DNA of 31,220 bases, taken from IMG/VR virus record IMGVR_UViG_3300047375_000330, positions 1 through 31,220 of that record; one strand, written 5' to 3'. Position numbers and translations under genes: made by a program. Position 1 is the first letter of the stretch; every line of letters begins with the position of its first letter. Source of the stretch: a virus. Below the pieces are notes generated by a model, which saw only the letters and a list, made by a program, of their open reading frames with translations, had not been told where the DNA came from and ran no database searches. This document shows, piece after piece, positions 20,129 through 26,235 of this stretch.

Positions 20129-20159
20129 ATTATACCCGTCTTTTTTACAAAAAAGGCAA
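20129..20159 (-). promoter_or_regulatory. Candidate late-operon promoter
   Basis: The minus strand carries a perfect TATAAT (20134-20129) with a weak TTGCCT (20159-20154) 19 bases upstream. The predicted start is near 20121, 34 bases before the DUF5675 gene that opens the late operon. A 16-base A/T symmetric element, CTTTTTT-AC-AAAAAAG (20140-20155), fills the spacer. The poor -35 suggests activation by a factor. Confidence 0.55.
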
Positions 20160-20179
20160 CTTTTTCGCCCTCCCCCCTG

Positions 20180-20207
20180 TTGTATGTGTAAACCTTTGGT
20201 GTACAAT
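20180..20207 (+). promoter_or_regulatory. Early promoter with operator in its spacer
   Basis: TTGTAT (20180-20185), a 16-bp spacer and TACAAT (20202-20207) precede the 20234 gene. The spacer holds GTAAACCTTTGGTGTAC (20188-20204), a near-palindrome (GTAaACC / GGTgTAC around TTT) also present at the 24.7-kb promoters. Repressor binding would block RNA polymerase directly. Confidence 0.65.
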
Positions 20208-20233
20208 AACCCCATCAACAACGAGGGACGGAC

Positions 20234-20527
20234 ATGACCAGCAGCAAAACCATCGACCAAATCATTGCTGAAGTTGAAGCAAGCATCGAATCCGAGAAGA
20301 ACTTGCTCAAGCAATTTAGCTTCAAAAAAGGGTCTTGGTTTACAGGCTATGAAGTGAAAGCAAACGGATCTTTTGAAGGCTTGGATTTCTGGATGGTGCG
20401 CTTCGAGAAAGTTGGAGCAGGTTGGGCAGCATTCCCAATTTGTGAGCGCCAAGCCACTGAGCCAAAGCGGTTTGAGACACTGCATCAAGCCAAAGTCAAC
20501 ATTTTGAAAAATGCAAAGGCCGCGTAA
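20234..20527 (+). CDS. Hypothetical early protein, 97 aa
   Basis: First gene of the plus-strand early unit, starting at ATG 20234 after GAGGGACGGAC. The protein begins 'MTSSKTIDQIIAEVEASIESEKNLLKQF', an amphipathic helix, followed by a compact alpha/beta segment with many aromatic residues ('FEGLDFWMVRFEKVGAGWAAFPICERQ') and a C-terminal helix ending 'ILKNAKAA'. I do not recognise the family. No catalytic or metal motif is visible. Its stop codon lies in the loop of a GGCCGC-GTAA-GCGGCC hairpin, as does that of the 24788 gene, so the two may be regulated alike. Confidence 0.7.
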   Translation: MTSSKTIDQIIAEVEASIESEKNLLKQFSFKKGSWFTGYEVKANGSFEGLDFWMVRFEKVGAGWAAFPICERQATEPKRFETLHQAKVNILKNAKAA

Positions 20528-20533
20528 GCGGCC
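20518..20533 (+). promoter_or_regulatory. GUAA-tetraloop hairpin around a stop codon, copy 1
   Basis: GGCCGC GTAA GCGGCC has perfect 6-bp arms and a GNRA-type loop. The stop codon TAA (20525-20527) lies in the loop. The ribosome site AAGGGA for the next gene follows within 2 bases. A 20-base match containing this element recurs at 24995-25014. Confidence 0.75.
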
Positions 20534-20545
20534 CAAGGGAATACC

Positions 20546-20713
20546 ATGAAACTACGCTATCCACTCGCCCTGCTCTTGATCGTCGGCTTCTTTGCTTCCG
20601 GTCAGAACGACTATGAAAACGAAGTTATGGAGGAACAGCAGTACATCGAGCGCGTCTGCGATGGAGTCCACGAGGACTATCTCAATCTGCGGCCTTCCTG
20701 TAATGCAAAATGA
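20546..20713 (+). CDS. Small exported or membrane peptide overlapping mom-like gene
   Basis: A 55-residue frame starts at ATG 20546, 6 bases after AAGGGA: 'MKLRYPLALLLIVGFFASGQ', then an acidic stretch and 'CDGVHEDYLNLRPSCNAK'. The N-terminus is a good signal peptide or single membrane span (basic start, hydrophobic core, small residues near 17-19). There are two Cys in the mature part but no lipobox. Its last 11 bases overlap the Mom-like gene's first codons (ATGCAAAATGA), so translation may be coupled, although Mu Com is unrelated in sequence. I do not recognise the family. Confidence 0.65.
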   Translation: MKLRYPLALLLIVGFFASGQNDYENEVMEEQQYIERVCDGVHEDYLNLRPSCNAK

Positions 20714-21275
20714 TCTCTTTGGAATAACAGCAACCCCGCCAGCTTCCCCTAAGATGTTCTCAATTCAGGACATAAGCAAAGGTATGGCGGCTGAGGTCTA
20801 CAAGGAAAGCCATTACTTTGGCGATAAAGGCTTCCTGCATGTGTACAGCTTTGGCGCTGTATTCGATTCGTTTTGCTGGGGGGCGATAACCTACGGCACA
20901 CCAAATGCCAAGAACATCAACGGCCTATACAAAAGCGACGAACAACATGGGGTTTTGGAGATCACAAGACTAGCCTTCAGGGAAGGATCGCCCAGAAACT
21001 CACCCTCTCGGCTTATATCCCAATCAATCAAATTACTTCAACAGCGCTATCCACTGCGTCTGGTTATTACCTACGCTGACACTGCCCAAGGCCACACTGG
21101 TGGAATCTACAAAGCGTCGAATTTTACTTATCACGGACTAACCGCTCAGAAGACAGACTTTGTCCATCCAGACGGAAGCATCAAGAAGATGAAAGGCGTG
21201 AGGTATTCAGATATGGAAGGCGAGTGGATTAAGCGTAGCAGAAAACACTTGTTTAGCTTTCAGCCTTCTTGCTAA
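20703..21275 (+). CDS. mom: Mom-like DNA modification protein
   Basis: A 190-residue protein matching the Mu Mom type: 'FDSFCWGAITYG' (55-65), 'GVLEITRLAFREGSPRNSPSRLISQSIKLLQQRYP' (83-117), 'RLVITYADTAQGHTGGIYKASNFTYHGLT' (119-147). The 'E..RL...d..PrNs.SrLI..s..lL....P....v.sYaDt.qGH.G.iYqA.nw.y.G' pattern is diagnostic. Mom converts adenine in phage DNA to an N6-carbamoylmethyl form, protecting it from restriction enzymes; it has a GNAT-like fold. Start choice: ATG 20703 overlaps the upstream gene. The longer frame from 20592 reads low-complexity residues from the other gene. It converges with a minus-strand gene, overlapping it by 23 bases. Confidence 0.85.
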   Translation: MQNDLFGITATPPASPKMFSIQDISKGMAAEVYKESHYFGDKGFLHVYSFGAVFDSFCWGAITYGTPNAKNINGLYKSDEQHGVLEITRLAFREGSPRNSPSRLISQSIKLLQQRYPLRLVITYADTAQGHTGGIYKASNFTYHGLTAQKTDFVHPDGSIKKMKGVRYSDMEGEWIKRSRKHLFSFQPSC

Positions 21276-21414
21276 CCAGCCAGATATTCTCCCTTTCCTG
21301 ACCCTCTGGCATCTCCGCTGAAGGGTTAGGGTCTGGCTCCTCTTCGTATAGGTCCGAGACGATGACTGTCACCTGACAGTTGTTGGGTAGATCCTCAATC
21401 AGAACTGTCGGCAC
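21253..21414 (-). CDS. Small hypothetical protein at end of recombination operon
   Basis: The 53-residue frame starts at GTG 21414 (MPTVLIEDLPNNCQVTVIVSD...), with GAGAGG a few bases upstream. A longer start at 21459 would overlap the previous gene by 65 bases. The protein begins with a beta-rich stretch and continues with an acidic Pro/Glu region, ending 'NIWLVSKKAES'. No family is recognised. It is the last gene of the minus-strand operon, tail to tail with the Mom-like gene. Confidence 0.5.
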   Translation of the reverse strand: MPTVLIEDLPNNCQVTVIVSDLYEEEPDPNPSAEMPEGQERENIWLVSKKAES

Positions 21415-21595
21415 CAAACCTCTCCTCGATGAACCGTTCTCGTTGAACAAGTGTAGCAAGATCGCGGCAGGCTTCCTCTAAAACTTGGATGTCCTTCGTG
21501 ACCCCGTATTCCGTAATCAAGTGAACCACCCGCCCACTCAGGTAGTTGAGTTGGTTGGCAATTATGTACTCGGTGGCGTCTATCTCGCGCATCAT
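21395..21595 (-). CDS. Small helical hypothetical protein
   Basis: A 66-residue helical protein, 'MMREIDATEYIIANQLNYLSGRVVHLITEYG', then 'QVLEEACRDLATLVQRERFIEERFG'. The start lies in ATGATG, overlapping the stop of the metallophosphoesterase gene by 4 bases, so translation is probably coupled. A longer reading to 21628 lies within that gene. I do not recognise the family. Heptad-like spacing of Leu/Val residues suggests dimerisation. Confidence 0.6.
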   Translation of the reverse strand: MMREIDATEYIIANQLNYLSGRVVHLITEYGVTKDIQVLEEACRDLATLVQRERFIEERFGADSSD

Positions 21596-22560
21596 TCGTA
21601 ATCTACTCGGTGGATCTCGCCCCGCCACTCGTATTCTGCTGGCTTGTGAACCTTCACGAACTCTGGCGTTAGCAGGAAGTTATCACGGACGGTAAGGACA
21701 ACAAAGCCTGACACCCAGTTCTTTGGAGTGTCTTCGGCATAATCAAAGCTCGGCTGATGTGGGTCTGCCATCGTCCCGCATTGCACCCCATAGCGATGCG
21801 CGTTGTAATCACTCCAACTCTTACACTCCATTTGGTGTGTATGGCCGGTTATTATGTGAATTCCAGATTTCAGGGCGTTCGTGTATCCAGCGTGGATTCC
21901 GCCATTGAATCTATGCTTGATCATGATCGGCTTTTCTGCACCATCAACCCATAGGGACATACAGAAAGTCCAGCTAGGAAAATGGTCTTTTAGGCTGAAC
22001 CCTGGGACTCCCTGGAACATCGCCGCATTCTGCGCCAGTGACATATCAAAGCGCTGGTCGTGGTTGCCCATTGTCCAGAACCGCTCCGCGTTGGGCGCAG
22101 CCTTCTCAATCTCTGAGAGCCTTTGCGTCACGGTGTTTAGCTCTTGTTCCACTGTGGGCTTTTCTTCCCACCCCAGTGGGGCGTGGCGGCTGATGCTTGC
22201 GCCATCCATCAAGTCACCATTCAAGACGATGACATCTGGCTGGAGTTGCTTGGCTAATTCAACGAAGGCAAGGTGGGCAGTGGTTACGGTGTTGGCCTCG
22301 TAGTGGGCGTCTGAACCGATTAAGAAGGTTTTGTCTTTCTTGATGGTGAGCGTCTGACGAACTGCCTTTCTCGGCCCGTTGGTCTTGGATAGGTGCGCAG
22401 GGACGTTCAAAGTCCTGCCCAGCATACCCTCCACCCGCTTGCGTTTCGCAAACACGTTTCTGACCGAGACGTTGTACTTGGCCGCCATATTGGTCGCGCC
22501 CAATGCCTCAAACTCTACTGCGAACACCTCTGGATCAGTCGGTAGGATCGGTCTTGCCAT
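21592..22560 (-). CDS. HTH-linked calcineurin-like metallophosphoesterase
   Basis: A 322-residue protein from ATG 22560, which follows GAGGGGGCC. Residues about 10-50 ('EVFAVEFEALGATNMAAKYNVSVRNVFAKRKRVE') look like a helix-turn-helix. The catalytic domain has SDAH (D84, H86), GDLMD (D116), GNHD (165-168), H216, H223 and GHTH (239-242), the full binuclear-metal set of the superfamily. Its position beside NinG and a YqaJ exonuclease suggests a nuclease or phosphodiesterase acting on DNA ends. Substrate cannot be read from sequence; such HTH-phosphoesterases are common in aquatic phages but little studied. Confidence 0.85.
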   Translation of the reverse strand: MARPILPTDPEVFAVEFEALGATNMAAKYNVSVRNVFAKRKRVEGMLGRTLNVPAHLSKTNGPRKAVRQTLTIKKDKTFLIGSDAHYEANTVTTAHLAFVELAKQLQPDVIVLNGDLMDGASISRHAPLGWEEKPTVEQELNTVTQRLSEIEKAAPNAERFWTMGNHDQRFDMSLAQNAAMFQGVPGFSLKDHFPSWTFCMSLWVDGAEKPIMIKHRFNGGIHAGYTNALKSGIHIITGHTHQMECKSWSDYNAHRYGVQCGTMADPHQPSFDYAEDTPKNWVSGFVVLTVRDNFLLTPEFVKVHKPAEYEWRGEIHRVDYE

Positions 22561-22717
22561 GGCCCCCTCGCCTTGCGTATGAATTGCAGACATGGGCAAA
22601 AACCAATGCCTTTAGCTTCTCATCCGATTCTTTTTTTGGTTCAGAGTCCCAGACCTGTTTGGCTGCTGCGTCCATAGCTTTCACCATGTCTTGCGCTACA
22701 ACCCTGGGGGATCTCAT
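22535..22717 (-). CDS. Small hypothetical protein between ninG and phosphoesterase
   Basis: A 60-residue protein, 'MRSPRVVAQDMVKAMDAAAKQVWDSEPKKESDEKLKALVFAHVCNSYARR...'. Its ATG overlaps the NinG-like stop by 4 bases, which is the main evidence that it is translated; its end overlaps the phosphoesterase start by 26 bases. It is helical, with no recognised family. The Arg/Gly-rich tail may partly be a by-product of the overlap. Confidence 0.55.
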   Translation of the reverse strand: MRSPRVVAQDMVKAMDAAAKQVWDSEPKKESDEKLKALVFAHVCNSYARRGGHGKTDPTD

Positions 22718-23148
22718 CTGCCACGCTCCCCTAAGCGTCTTTCATGGGCCATGATCTGCTGGCCCCAGTCTTCTATCATTTCACGATAGTCGGCAGCGTA
22801 ATACTTCACGGGGTCTTTCTTGGTCGCCAGCATGTACTCCACTGCTTCCTTCCCGTACCAGTCTAACATCCAGATCGTGTACTGCGCTTCTGCGCTGCCA
22901 TGCTTCATGCCGAAGCCGTTGCAGCCCTTGCACTGCGGATTCACGTTCTGCTCTTCCAGCGCCCATCTACTCGATGAACCCTTCGGGATAAAGTGTCCGC
23001 CGTCCATGTTCTTGTAGTGGTCTAAGCGGCCACATGAAACGCACTTACAGTATCCATTGTCGTCAGCCGCGCTGATTCTTGCAAGTTTTTGCAGAGTCTT
23101 CAATGCCTTAGCGCGAAGCGTTGCTGAAGTTTGTTTCTTCGACTTCAC
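22714..23148 (-). CDS. ninG: NinG (Rap)-like recombination endonuclease
   Basis: A 144-residue protein with 'GYCKCVSCGRLDHYKNMDGGHFIPKGSSSRWALEEQNVNPQCKGCNGFGMKHG' (residues 32-84). C36/C39 and C73/C76 form a zinc site. The 'DGGHFI...........N..PQC..CN' segment is an HNH-like core diagnostic of lambda NinG/Rap. Lambda Rap binds branched DNA and acts as a structure-specific endonuclease in recombination. It lies directly after a YqaJ-type exonuclease (4-base overlap), making a recombination cassette. Confidence 0.85.
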   Translation of the reverse strand: MKSKKQTSATLRAKALKTLQKLARISAADDNGYCKCVSCGRLDHYKNMDGGHFIPKGSSSRWALEEQNVNPQCKGCNGFGMKHGSAEAQYTIWMLDWYGKEAVEYMLATKKDPVKYYAADYREMIEDWGQQIMAHERRLGERGR

Positions 23149-23777
23149 AACTGGGCTTTGTAGTTTGCGTCTATGGTCTGTTTAAACATATTTACCCTTT
23201 CCCGTACTTCATGCAAAAAATCTATTACTTGCAGCTCTAGCGCCAAAATTTCTTCTTGAGATGGCGAAAATCTCTTTATCCAAATGTTGCGCTCATCAGG
23301 AAGTCTAGGGTCGTACATCACAAAGTCGCACCATTTGCGCCTCGTGCAAGCAAGTTGCCACATCATTTGCGTCTTGTAGTTTTCTGGAATGTCGCCTCTG
23401 ATAACTGTATTAACCATCGTTGTAGTATTCGGGCATTTAATTTCTATCAGCCCGTTATCCCCGACCAATCCGTCAGGGCTTGCGCTTGATTCTTCGATTA
23501 GTGGGTGGGGTACACTGCCAGTTTCGCATACATCACAACCCTTAATTAATTCATAGGCTTGGCGAGCCAACGGTTCTGTTTCTACGCCCCATTGCATCGC
23601 TGGGCTTGGAATTATTATCCTGCGCTCACCCGTAAGCCTTTCATTCACAAGGTCATCCATCAATTTCTGGCGCGATGCGCTATATCCACTCTTGGTCTTA
23701 GCGACAGCCTCATGGCATCTACTTGCGGTCAAGTTGCCAATTCTGGAAAGATGCCATTCTTCGCTTCCCTGGATCAT
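23145..23777 (-). CDS. YqaJ / lambda-exonuclease-like recombinase
   Basis: A 210-residue 5'-3' exonuclease. 'EEWHLSRIGNLTASRCHEAVAKTK' starts the family domain. 'MQWGVETEPLARQAYE' (61-76) carries a catalytic Glu. 'SASPDGLVGDNGLIEIKCPNTTT' supplies D102, E112 and K114, the D...E-x-K nuclease triad. 'KTQMMWQLACTRRKWCDFVMYDPR' completes the fold. It would resect phage DNA ends to give single strands for the ERF annealing protein encoded at 25.6 kb, forming a split Red-like pair. It starts by a TGATG overlap with the preceding gene. Confidence 0.9.
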   Translation of the reverse strand: MIQGSEEWHLSRIGNLTASRCHEAVAKTKSGYSASRQKLMDDLVNERLTGERRIIIPSPAMQWGVETEPLARQAYELIKGCDVCETGSVPHPLIEESSASPDGLVGDNGLIEIKCPNTTTMVNTVIRGDIPENYKTQMMWQLACTRRKWCDFVMYDPRLPDERNIWIKRFSPSQEEILALELQVIDFLHEVRERVNMFKQTIDANYKAQL

Positions 23778-24094
23778 CAGACGATACGTCGCTGGTTGGC
23801 TTGCTTGGTTCGTTCAGCATCAAACGCCAGTTGCCCAAGCATTATCTTCTTCTTGAGTGTCTCAGCCTTCAGACTGGCTTGTTGGACTGTTCGGTAGTGG
23901 TTGGCCCACTCTCCGCTTGATCTGGTTTCTGTTTGCGCCTTAGCAGCGCTTGCCCCTGCATCCATGTGCGCCTTCTGGCTGCTAGCTTCAAAGCTCTTAA
24001 AATTGGTTTCTGCTTCAATTGCTTCCCTACTCGCCCCCTCCCACTCGTTTATACGTTGGCCCAACCTATCCAATATCTGGTCTAGTCTATCCAT
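23777..24094 (-). CDS. Coiled-coil hypothetical protein before exonuclease
   Basis: A 105-residue, almost wholly helical protein: 'MDRLDQILDRLGQRINEWEGASREAIEAETNFKSFEASSQKAHMDAG...'. Start choice: ATG 24094-24092, preceded by GAGGGAGAGAGTC; an earlier ATG at 24121 lacks a ribosome site. No motif or family is recognised. Its place directly before the exonuclease (1-base overlap) suggests a partner or modulator of recombination, but this is inference only. It is the first gene after the regulator on this strand. Confidence 0.65.
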   Translation of the reverse strand: MDRLDQILDRLGQRINEWEGASREAIEAETNFKSFEASSQKAHMDAGASAAKAQTETRSSGEWANHYRTVQQASLKAETLKKKIMLGQLAFDAERTKQANQRRIV

Positions 24095-24467
24095 GACTCT
24101 CTCCCTCTTTCGTTTAGACATGCCGTGACATTTAGTAGGGTTTGGTGGCCCCTACCAATCTTAGTCTCTATTGCTAGTCCGTATTTTCACTCGACCACTT
24201 CCACGCTGGCCCAGACGTTGCCCACCTCCCATACCCATATATCAACTGGGGGGGAGGGTTTTTGCCACCTTTAACGAGTGTTCAACTTGGCGTTCCTACT
24301 AAGACGCCCAGATTCAAGCAAATTGTCTTTGGTCGTTCTGCTCAACGGGTCAACCACCCGCACCCGTACGCTTTTCCGTACACGCCTCTGCCACCGAAGT
24401 GGAGCAAATAAAAAGGGCCAGCCCCTCACAACAACAGGGGAGGGAGGAGGGAAGGAGGGACTGACCG
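24095..24467. other. Gene-free gap between regulator and recombination operon
   Basis: I see no convincing gene in these 373 bases. They hold overlapping inverted repeats GTAGGG / CCCTAC (24135-24140 and 24150-24155) and TTGGT / ACCAA just upstream of the 24094 gene, and a run of seven G (24246 region). They also hold a GTACG / CGTAC hairpin near 24365-24380 and a likely terminator at 24410-24440. A promoter for the 24094 gene is expected here; TTGGTA-15-TACTAA on the minus strand overlapping the inverted repeat is a weak candidate. Confidence 0.5.
24410..24440 (-). terminator. Probable terminator after regulator gene
   Basis: On the minus strand CCCCT (24440-24436 region) pairs with AGGGG (24426-24422) around a 9-base loop. 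An alternative small stem GGGC-TG-GCCC (24424-24415) lies directly against TTTTT (24414-24410). It is 28-58 bases past the regulator stop codon. The stem is short, so efficiency is uncertain. Confidence 0.4.
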
Positions 24468-24665
24468 CTAATCATAGAAAACATCTGGCCGCAATTCTTC
24501 GCGTCGAACCGCTCCACCTGTCAACTTTTCCAACTTTATCACATGGACAGCCGGTACTTGGCTTTTCCATTTCTGAATATGTTGTCCGCTGACCCCACAC
24601 TGTCGGGCGATCTCAGCCTTTGACCCAACAATCTCGACGACTCTTTTGAATGCTTCTGTTTCCAT
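24468..24665 (-). CDS. YdaS/Cro-like HTH transcriptional regulator
   Basis: A 65-residue protein from ATG 24665 (METEAFKRVVEIVGSKAEIARQCGVSGQHIQKWKSQVPAVHVIKLEKLTGGAVRREELRPDVFYD in short form). The helix-turn-helix spans about 14-34, and the 'VPA......E.LTGG.V.R.eLRPD.F' tail is the YdaS/Cro-like signature. A longer start at 24773 would add Cys/Ile-rich residues and run through the promoter region, so it is rejected. It is divergent from the early operon, and operator-like repeats lie between them, so it probably controls both directions. No separate CI-type repressor is visible. Confidence 0.85.
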   Translation of the reverse strand: METEAFKRVVEIVGSKAEIARQCGVSGQHIQKWKSQVPAVHVIKLEKLTGGAVRREELRPDVFYD

Positions 24666-24680
24666 TCCGTCCACAGTACA

Positions 24681-24698
24681 GATACACCAGCAGTTTGC
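24681..24698. promoter_or_regulatory. Operator-like motif, copy before regulator gene
   Basis: GATACACCAGCAGTTT (24681-24696) matches GATACACCAATAGTTT exactly 60 bases away (24741-24756) at 14 of 16 positions. It lies 16 bases upstream of the regulator ATG, inside a possible minus-strand promoter (TTGCAA-16-TACTGT, or TTGTTC-16-TATCTG). Autoregulation of the regulator is inferred. Confidence 0.6.
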
Positions 24699-24733
24699 AA
24701 GAACAATAATACAAAAAAAGTTTGCATTAGTGC

Positions 24734-24761
24734 TTGCATGGATACACCAATAGTTTATTAT
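24734..24761 (+). promoter_or_regulatory. Early operon promoter with operator in its spacer
   Basis: TTGCAT (24734-24739), a 16-bp spacer and TATTAT (24756-24761) precede the 24788 gene. The operator-like motif ATACACCAATAGTTTAT (24742-24758) fills the spacer, starting 14 bases before the -10, exactly as at the 20.2-kb promoter. This would drive the plus-strand early operon. Confidence 0.7.
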
Positions 24762-24787: not shown

Positions 24788-25003
24788 ATGAAATTTGAAG
24801 CCGGAAACACCTACACCACTCGAAGCGCTTGCGACCACAACACCATCGTGACCGCTGAAGTGCTGAAGCGATCTGCCAAGTTCGTGACAGTCAAAACGCA
24901 GATGGAAGAGTCCAAGCGTTGCGGCATCCTCGTCATCGACGGTGTTGAAACCATCAAGCCTTGGGGTTCCTTCTCCATGTGCCCAATCATCCGAGCCGCG
25001 TAA
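24788..25003 (+). CDS. Small early phage protein, 71 aa
   Basis: The start is ATG 24788, 8 bases after AGGAG. The protein reads 'MKFEAGNTYTTRSACDHNTIVTAEVLKRSAKFVTVKT', then 'RCGILVIDGVETIKPWGSFSMCPIIRA'. This 'F..G.tY.trS.cDh.ci....v..Rt.ktv.......rr.i...dgvE...P.G.ySM.PiI.A' pattern recurs in short proteins of phages and conjugative plasmids of Gammaproteobacteria; function unknown. It is the first gene of the early operon. Its stop lies in the GUAA hairpin. Confidence 0.75.
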   Translation: MKFEAGNTYTTRSACDHNTIVTAEVLKRSAKFVTVKTQMEESKRCGILVIDGVETIKPWGSFSMCPIIRAA

Positions 25004-25008
25004 GCGGC
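24995..25008 (+). promoter_or_regulatory. GUAA-tetraloop hairpin around a stop codon, copy 2
   Basis: GCCGC GTAA GCGGC has 5-bp arms with the stop TAA (25001-25003) in the loop. It is followed by CCAAGGAGGAATC and the next ATG at 25022. It lies within a 20-base perfect match to 20519-20538, although the genes ending there are unrelated. Confidence 0.75.
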
Positions 25009-25021
25009 CCAAGGAGGAATC

Positions 25022-25456
25022 ATGCTTGTACCTGATAGACCAATCGAAGCTGACCCAGAGTTCCAAAGACTTTGGGGCGATGACATAGATCAAACCACCT
25101 GCCCAACCTGCAAGTCAGACATGGTGGACTTCCGAGACTCTGGCAGAGGCTTCATCCTTTGCCCTCACTGCGATCTTGGCAAACCTAAAAACAACCACGT
25201 CAACTTTAACCTGCACTGGTACGGCATGGATGAGTACCAGACCTTTGAGAACGGGTTGGTTAGTGAAAGCCGAGCAGACATGGCAGACCTTCAAAAGTGG
25301 TGGGCTGAAAACTTCCATTGGGAGATTCGCGAATATCAGAACGGTGCTTATGTCCCTGCCGACATTTGGGACTGCAACGAATCGGGCCAGTGGTTCATCT
25401 ACCACCGTGGCTATCAGATTGGCTGCGTGACGGAGGTTCCTCATGGGTCGCGTTAA
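25022..25456 (+). CDS. Zinc-ribbon hypothetical protein, 144 aa
   Basis: The start ATG 25022 follows AAGGAGGAATC. C27-x2-C30 and C47-x2-C50 ('CPTCKSDM...ILCPHCD') make a zinc ribbon of the C-x2-C-x16-C-x2-C type. The rest is rich in Trp, Tyr and acidic residues ('DLQKWWAENFHWEIREYQNGAYVPADIWDCNESGQWFIYHRG'). I do not recognise the family. Its size, zinc ribbon and place in the early operon suggest a regulatory or nucleic-acid-binding role. It overlaps the next gene by 14 bases. Confidence 0.75.
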   Translation: MLVPDRPIEADPEFQRLWGDDIDQTTCPTCKSDMVDFRDSGRGFILCPHCDLGKPKNNHVNFNLHWYGMDEYQTFENGLVSESRADMADLQKWWAENFHWEIREYQNGAYVPADIWDCNESGQWFIYHRGYQIGCVTEVPHGSR

Positions 25457-25628
25457 ATCTGAACTAATGACCGATGGGCCAGACGATGAACTGGTACCCA
25501 CCCCCATTTCGCAGGTTGTGGACAACATCCGCAACTGTGATTTACCAAGAAACTCGGTAGAGCGTCACCTTTACCTTAAAACCCAACTAAAGGAGTTGAT
25601 GAATGGAATCAAAACCAACCTTGATTAG
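25443..25628 (+). CDS. Small hypothetical protein, 61 aa
   Basis: Starts at ATG 25443 within the end of the upstream gene, after GGAGG and 6 bases. It reads 'MGRVKSELMTDGPDDELVPTPISQVVDNIRNCDLPRNSVERHLYLKTQLKELMNGI'. A strong ribosome site and operon position support translation. The C-terminal half is a helix; no family is recognised. It overlaps the ERF gene start by 26 bases, and that gene's ribosome site AAGGAG lies inside it. Confidence 0.6.
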   Translation: MGRVKSELMTDGPDDELVPTPISQVVDNIRNCDLPRNSVERHLYLKTQLKELMNGIKTNLD

Positions 25629-26235
25629 CGCACTTGTGAAGGCGCAGTCAGAAATGTCCCACGCGGGATTTGACCAAACCAACCCTGCCTTCAAGAACGC
25701 AAAGTTTGCATCTTTGAAGAGCGTGATTGACGCTGTAAAGCCAGCGCTCAACGCCAACGGTATAGCCTTTGTGCAAAAATCTGTACCCATGGATCATGGT
25801 ATCGCTGTAGAAACCGTCTTTTACGGTCACGGTGAGGAGTTATTTACAGGGCCAGTTCCCGTCCCAATCGACAGGGAGAATGCTCACGGCTTTGGCTCGG
25901 CCCTAACCTATGCCAAGCGCTACTCTCTGGCGATGGCTTGCGGTGTAGCAGCAGATGAGGACGATGATGGCAACGCGGCAGCAAAGAACACTACTGGCCG
26001 AAAGCCTCAGTCAGTCACCAAGACTGTTATTCAAGAGGAGGGCATCAAGGTCGATGAGGGAAAACGAACCAGTTACATTTCCCTTCTCACGGAAGCCACT
26101 TCCGCCGAAGATCACGCAGGCATGAAAGAACTGCTCGATGAATTACGCCAAGACAGTGATATGAAGCTAGCGGTGTGGGCAGAGCTTCCTAGCAACATCC
26201 GATCAGCAATCAGAAAAGTGGAGAATCCCAAATGA
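25603..26235 (+). CDS. erf: ERF family single-strand annealing protein
   Basis: A 210-residue recombinase. 'LISALVKAQSEMSHAGFDQTNPAFKNAKFASLKSVIDAVKPALNANGIAFVQ' opens the domain. 'HGFGSALTYAKRYSLAMACGVAADEDDDGN' near residues 93-122 is the ERF hallmark ('G.a.TYarRYal....gi...eDdD'). ERF proteins coat and anneal single-stranded DNA, promoting phage recombination and genome circularisation. The matching exonuclease is encoded on the other strand at 23.1-23.8 kb. The C-terminal third is helical and variable, as in the family. Start ATG is 7 bases after AAGGAG. Confidence 0.9.
   Translation: MESKPTLISALVKAQSEMSHAGFDQTNPAFKNAKFASLKSVIDAVKPALNANGIAFVQKSVPMDHGIAVETVFYGHGEELFTGPVPVPIDRENAHGFGSALTYAKRYSLAMACGVAADEDDDGNAAAKNTTGRKPQSVTKTVIQEEGIKVDEGKRTSYISLLTEATSAEDHAGMKELLDELRQDSDMKLAVWAELPSNIRSAIRKVENPK

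Follow-up and report, generated by a model that had tools for sequence, protein, structure and literature searches.

A dyad shared by three promoters of an uncultured phage: probable operators of a YdaS/P22-Cro-like regulator at two slots for single-gene cassettes

The stretch of DNA analysed here, referred to as the window, is one whole virus record of IMG/VR (IMGVR_UViG_3300047375_000330; 31,220 nucleotides, G+C 51%), in which no exact terminal repeat was found. The terminase, portal, capsid and tail genes run leftward from 20087, and to the right of these structural genes lie an operon named M (20234 onward), a leftward regulator operon, and the right (R) operon with an Erf annealing protein and an SSB-like gene. 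The subject of this work is a 17-bp site found in the predicted promoters of all three operons, together with the small regulator, P0001, which may bind it. The elements in question are as follows.

M promoter, 20180-20207, plus strand: -35 TTGTAT at 20180-20185, 16-bp spacer, -10 TACAAT at 20202-20207; same geometry in relatives.
M operator (proposed), 20188-20204, no strand assigned: dyad GTAAACCTTTGGTGTAC within the M promoter spacer, identified by matrix score and exact match.
P0001, 24468-24665, minus strand: YdaS/P22-Cro-like regulator of 65 amino acids, matching Pfam and 3bd1, proposed binder of all three operators.
Regulator promoter, 24673-24700, minus strand: -35 TTGCAA at 24700-24695, 16-bp spacer, -10 TACTGT at 24678-24673.
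Operator O1 (proposed), 24682-24698, no strand assigned: ATACACCAGCAGTTTGC, within the spacer of the regulator promoter.
Possible weaker middle operator, 24710-24724, no strand assigned: TACAAAAAAAGTTTG, a fourth candidate, conserved in relatives and low-scoring.
R promoter, 24734-24761, plus strand: -35 TTGCAT at 24734-24739, 16-bp spacer, -10 TATTAT at 24756-24761.
Operator O3 (proposed), 24742-24758, no strand assigned: ATACACCAATAGTTTAT, in the spacer of the R promoter.

Direct reading of the window confirmed all three 17-bp sites at 20188-20204, 24682-24698 and 24742-24758, where the original prediction had placed a shared motif, and showed that they are copies of one near-palindromic dyad, TAMACY-N3-RGTKTA, the form of which is seen in the plus strand at 20189 (TAAACCTTTGGTGTA). 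The proposed scan of the whole genome returned three exact matches to the 14-mer TACACCNNNRGTTT in 31,220 bases, all of them at these sites, in comparison to none for the reversed control. When two mismatches were allowed, 14 matches were found in the window in comparison to 11.8 expected from shuffles; this count, which is no excess, was rejected as evidence, and the claim thus depends on the exact matches. A symmetrised matrix, for which training was confined to the regulator-proximal sites of relatives, gave the distant M site 19.2 bits, the second highest score in the whole window, while the best of 60 shuffled windows reached 17.75, and by this ranking the motif is not, at the sequence level, equally common outside promoters. 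The fourth rank was taken by a near-match at 23511-23525 (TACACTGCCAGTTTC), which lies within the YqaJ gene and is probably due to chance.

The geometry that had been described for the two rightward promoters, a 16-bp spacer with the 17-mer starting 14 bases before the -10, was true at both, and the third site also falls within a 16-bp spacer, that of the leftward regulator promoter. What did not hold was the reading of the motif as directional: since the dyad is near-palindromic and is inverted between relatives, the strand on which a site is written carries no meaning, and the directional reading was ruled out.

To follow the sites beyond the window, we used 26 contigs encoding regulators 86-100% identical to P0001, with four more found by profile. 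The motif was present in 25 of the 26 related records, with 58 matches in comparison to 3 for the reversed control, at positions orthologous to those in the window. Several lineages have the right operator in the opposite orientation with a remodelled flank, 12 bases being absent in L020-L022, and in L020-L028 the -35, the 16-bp spacer and the -10 are rebuilt around the inverted dyad. At both rightward promoters of relatives the dyad is found within the spacer, even where flipped. The sites of L102-L105 have drifted (TAAACTCAAAGTTTA, TATACCAAAAGTGT) and retain the core ACY-N3-RGT.

P0001 is a member of the YdaS/P22-Cro family by its sequence, as it scores above the Pfam cut-offs of both YdaS (PF15943, 72.7 bits against a threshold of 30) and P22_Cro (PF14549, 34.4 against 30.2), and its profile matches the Cro protein 3bd1, the nearest relative of solved structure. 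No host or prophage relatives of P0001 were found in the bacterial genome collection. By their coordinates, the putative operators overlap both the promoter of the regulator and the divergent one. In relatives the -35 of the regulator promoter is conserved and the -10 reads TAYTGT or TATGGT. The predicted transcript starts at about the ATG, the -10 ending some 8 nt before it (24663-24678, minus strand), and relatives have no conserved ribosome site for this gene, so the regulator mRNA is probably leaderless.

In some relatives other members of the family occupy the regulator locus. Because several regulator types replace one another at one locus, with an operator some 4 kb distant to match, the locus constitutes a natural test of repressor-operator co-evolution. 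One such genome, L122, is 97%, 99% and 100% identical to the window in TerL, portal and g23777, respectively, while its regulator is 33% identical, and it carries the TAMACY dyad at neither the R nor the M promoter. For a comparison by regulator type, loci were fetched through NinG and g23777, and genomes with both sites visible were used. The dyad was present at both sites in 14 genomes of the P0001 type and 5 genomes of the L120 type, and at neither site in 13 genomes of the L120b, L122 and L114 types, whose operators differ at both promoters; the L117 type has it at M only, with a different sequence at the regulator's promoter (L071, L146 and L208, plus L117 itself). The similarity of matched R and M regions ranks 5 of 720 type permutations, a rank that is approximate since some R regions were wrongly cut (L191, L193, L240 and truncated P0001-type copies); the automatic "M" regions of L018, L140, L181 and L232 were excluded, as they do not represent M promoters. 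This partial covariation supports a link between regulator and operator. The L117 type is a real exception, in which either the M operon has escaped control or the regulator tolerates both sequences. As for P0001 being the obvious binder of the motif, its family membership, the conservation of the operators at orthologous promoters and their divergence where the regulator differs all point to it, and from these we infer that it binds.

Two of the sites stand in front of hypervariable genes. The features on either side of the regulator are listed here.

M leader, 20208-20233, plus strand: ATCAACAACGAGGGACGGAC, the 5' cassette border, common to the R-slot leaders of relatives.
M-slot cassette gene, 20234-20527, plus strand: 97 amino acids, family F15, also in the R slot of L013 and L122.
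3' cassette border after the M-slot gene, 20519-20538, plus strand: hairpin GCCGC-GTAA-GCGGC including the stop codon, then CCAAGG.
Conserved gene F0 after the M slot, 20546-20713, plus strand.
Mom-like DNA-modification gene, 20703-21275, plus strand: last in the M operon; Pfam Mom at 107.5 bits; phrog_1384.
Rest of the leftward regulator operon, 21253-24121, minus strand: YqaJ exonuclease 23145-23777, NinG 22714-23148, phosphoesterase 21592-22599.
R-slot cassette gene, 24788-25003, plus strand: 71 amino acids, family F11, also in the M slot of L023.
3' cassette border after the R-slot gene, 24995-25014, plus strand: the same hairpin, GCCGC-GTAA-GCGGC-CCAAGG.
Conserved gene F1 after the R slot, 25022-25456, plus strand: the right operon runs on to Erf at 25603-26235.

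The gene directly behind each rightward promoter is hypervariable and not conserved, whereas the next gene is conserved (F0 at M and F1 at R). About 18 families were found in the M slot and eight in the R slot, which is empty in some genomes, and four families (F9, F11, F12 and F15) occur in both slots, in different genomes. The F15 DNA in the M slot of the window is 99-100% identical to the copies that L013 and L122 carry in the R slot, the identity starting in the leader (CAACAACGAGGGACGGACATG) and stopping in the 3' element, while the R and M promoters are dissimilar outside the dyad. Tandem pairs of cassettes, in which both members have a 3' element, fill some slots (L010, L013, L064 and L078); a slot of L029 labelled "M" proved to be an artefact of the contig end. 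Judged from these sequences, both rightward promoters look like equivalent expression slots with the shared operator as their control element. The operator being the same at both, a cassette may land in either and be regulated alike, and a gene plugged in at either slot probably comes under the same off-switch.

When the ends of slot genes were read without selecting for the 3' element, GCCGC[GA]TAAGCGGC or a close variant was found to terminate about 22 of the 26 slot families. After it usually comes CCAAGG, with which the next ribosome site begins, and the core genes which follow the slots do not have the element. A search by the element, which by design fixes its core letters, returned 80 distinct copies, for 76 of which the frame stopped by its TAA is the longest open one; the proteins so ended form 30 families, all ending in -AA. 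As RNA the element folds into a hairpin of 5-6 bp with a GUAA loop (-13 to -15 kcal/mol, z about -2.6). A C-terminal -AA could possibly act as a degron; a nucleic-acid role fits better because the hairpin runs past the stop codon. No exact 21-base copy was found in the bacterial genome collection, matches in named phages were just short, weak and of high E-value, and no description of the element was found in the open-access literature. The element was also seen in other phage groups (L119, L130, L131, L113, L128 and L111; some of the contigs are 48-60 kb), in one of which an ArdC-domain, anti-restriction-like gene ends in it.

Taken together, we consider it likely that the three sites are operators of P0001, through which it represses three promoters as a lytic timer, and that the two rightward promoters serve as equivalent cassette slots. 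A P0001 dimer would bind the 15-17 bp dyad TAMACY-N3-RGTKTA in the -35/-10 spacers of three promoters, namely those of the right operon with its Erf recombination gene, of the distant M operon with its cassette and Mom-like gene, and of the leftward regulator gene itself, and operator occupancy would exclude RNA polymerase. On entry, both rightward operons and the regulator would fire; as the regulator accumulates it would later close all three, making the timer self-limiting. No CI-type repressor was recognised among the scanned window genes between 20 and 28 kb, a scan that covered the small open reading frames in part, and no integrase, including integron integrase, was recognised among the window proteins scanned, a subset of the open reading frames; with these results and the sigma-70-like promoters, the timer role appears the most likely one. 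The regulon proposed in the original prediction, two early operons and the regulator's own gene, has an experimentally tested precedent in the YdaS protein of CP-933P (PMC8630535), while "early" is an assumption for the operon at 20188, which ends in a Mom-like gene. Each cassette would be bounded by the leader (CAACAAC..GGA) and the 3' hairpin with its stop codon, so that either slot gives the same control, and exchange probably proceeds by short-homology (homologous or annealing) recombination at borders of about 20 bp, perhaps through the phage's own YqaJ/Erf pair. Several points weigh against this interpretation: the L117 type keeps a TAMACC operator at M despite a different regulator and a different R operator, the counts come from related genomes and are not independent, the promoter elements were called by consensus, the evidence for recombination at the borders consists solely of identity breakpoints, and the whole case is built from sequence evidence.

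The behaviour of the L117 type would be explained if the dyad were the site of a host transcription factor, by which the phage taps a host signal at three promoters while P0001 acts elsewhere, and evidence of the present kind, being sequence only, leaves room for such a factor. We regard it as improbable, since the promoter of the regulator itself contains the dyad and since the operators differ at both promoters when the regulator region alone is exchanged, as in L122 with its near-identical backbone. A different role for P0001, that of an activator or of a CI-like maintenance repressor in a temperate cycle rather than a lytic Cro-like timer, would suit a regulator gene that is divergent from the right operon and apparently leaderless, as are cI and paaR2 (PMC8630535); it is nevertheless unlikely, because operators inside -35/-10 spacers suit blocking of the polymerase and not its recruitment, and because P0001 is short and of Cro/YdaS type, with no integrase recognised among the scanned proteins. 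Least credible is that two of the promoters were recently copied from the third and share the motif by ancestry, without function. Leaders and cassettes do move between slots, which makes such copying conceivable, but the R and M promoters are dissimilar outside the dyad, which persists, inverted in places, while its flanks diverge, and we find this reading very hard to sustain.

Some further observations concern the neighbourhood. Relatives conserve a TATAAT box together with an A/T-rich block on the minus strand at 20129-20170, at a distance of 60 bp from the M operator; this region is upstream of the lysis and structural genes that run leftward and is probably the late promoter. In L006, L011, L022 and L072 a cytosine-C5-methyltransferase-like gene takes the place that the Mom-like gene has in the M operon of the window, and as relatives swap one for the other, the end of this operon looks like a DNA-modification slot. 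No near DNA match to named phages was found; the best relatives of the terminase among them are in Pelagibacter phages and DSL-LC06 (52-56% identity), and the annotation of DSL-LC06 has no named regulator. The window has no match in Rfam to a known RNA family.

The shared operator accounts for the common control of two hypervariable loci, and the operator-leader together with the stop-codon hairpin provides a searchable signature for small, fast-evolving phage genes. One of the nearest precedents comes from archaeal viruses, in which anti-defence genes have been discovered under the guidance of regulatory sequences (PMC11065993). Some of the cassette-type genes are plausibly anti-restriction genes, since Mom-like or cytosine-methyltransferase-like genes end M operons and the ArdC-domain gene bears the 3' element. 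More tentatively, the two Cro-controlled promoters may be docking sites of a phage gene-cassette system, in which promoterless single-gene cassettes with a terminal stop-codon hairpin are exchanged by recombination between operator-leader and hairpin, move between the two slots and between lineages with differing repressor specificities, and provide functions that change quickly, probably serve counter-defence and are expressed briefly after infection; we hold this wider proposal to be quite possible, though a little short of probable.

The shared operator alone is a familiar Cro/YdaS design, of which the present system is a new member in an uncultured phage; as far as open-access searches show, such an operator system joined to two interchangeable slots for single genes and to a border formed by a stop-codon hairpin is undescribed. 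In lambda, one Cro protein has matched operators at two distant promoters (OR and OL). Matched operators at two distant promoters are likewise found in this virus, with the differences that no CI was recognised among the scanned proteins, that the regulator gene has its own promoter and is read in the direction leading away from the right operon, and that the second operon carries a Mom-like gene. In CP-933P of E. coli O157:H7, YdaS gives footprints on divergent promoters and represses its own, the divergent and a distant PL promoter (PMC8630535). It resembles P0001 in being a small Cro-like regulator of the same family with dyad operators over divergent promoters, GTTTA in the half-site and a leaderless repressor gene nearby (PMC8630535). 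CP-933P differs in having a second, CI-like repressor, PaaR2, and the CII-like YdaT, with no cassette slots reported (PMC8630535), and its inverted repeats are of 18 bp (GTTTAGTAA) with several per set, in comparison to 15-17 bp and mostly one per promoter here.

The cassettes have partial counterparts as well. The SAS/ESAS elements of Cluster K mycobacteriophages are conserved inverted-repeat elements upstream of small genes of unrelated families, similar to the arrangement here, whereas they serve many genes per genome with a proposed role in translation, in comparison to two promoters, a Cro-type operator and a distinct 3' hairpin border in this phage (PMC3203893). Integron cassettes are also promoterless single genes with a 3' hairpin, sometimes in tandem, behind a fixed upstream promoter; here no integron integrase was recognised among the scanned proteins, and the hairpin at the cassette ends, of about 14-16 nt and overlapping the stop codon, is not an attC-type site, being far shorter than attC; homologous exchange is more likely. 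The short conserved sequences that have been proposed as boundaries in phage mosaicism (cited in PMC3029335) share with the present system the short common borders, where modules could be exchanged by general recombination, while the borders in this phage enclose single genes, recur in two slots, and pair an operator-leader in front with a stop-codon hairpin behind.

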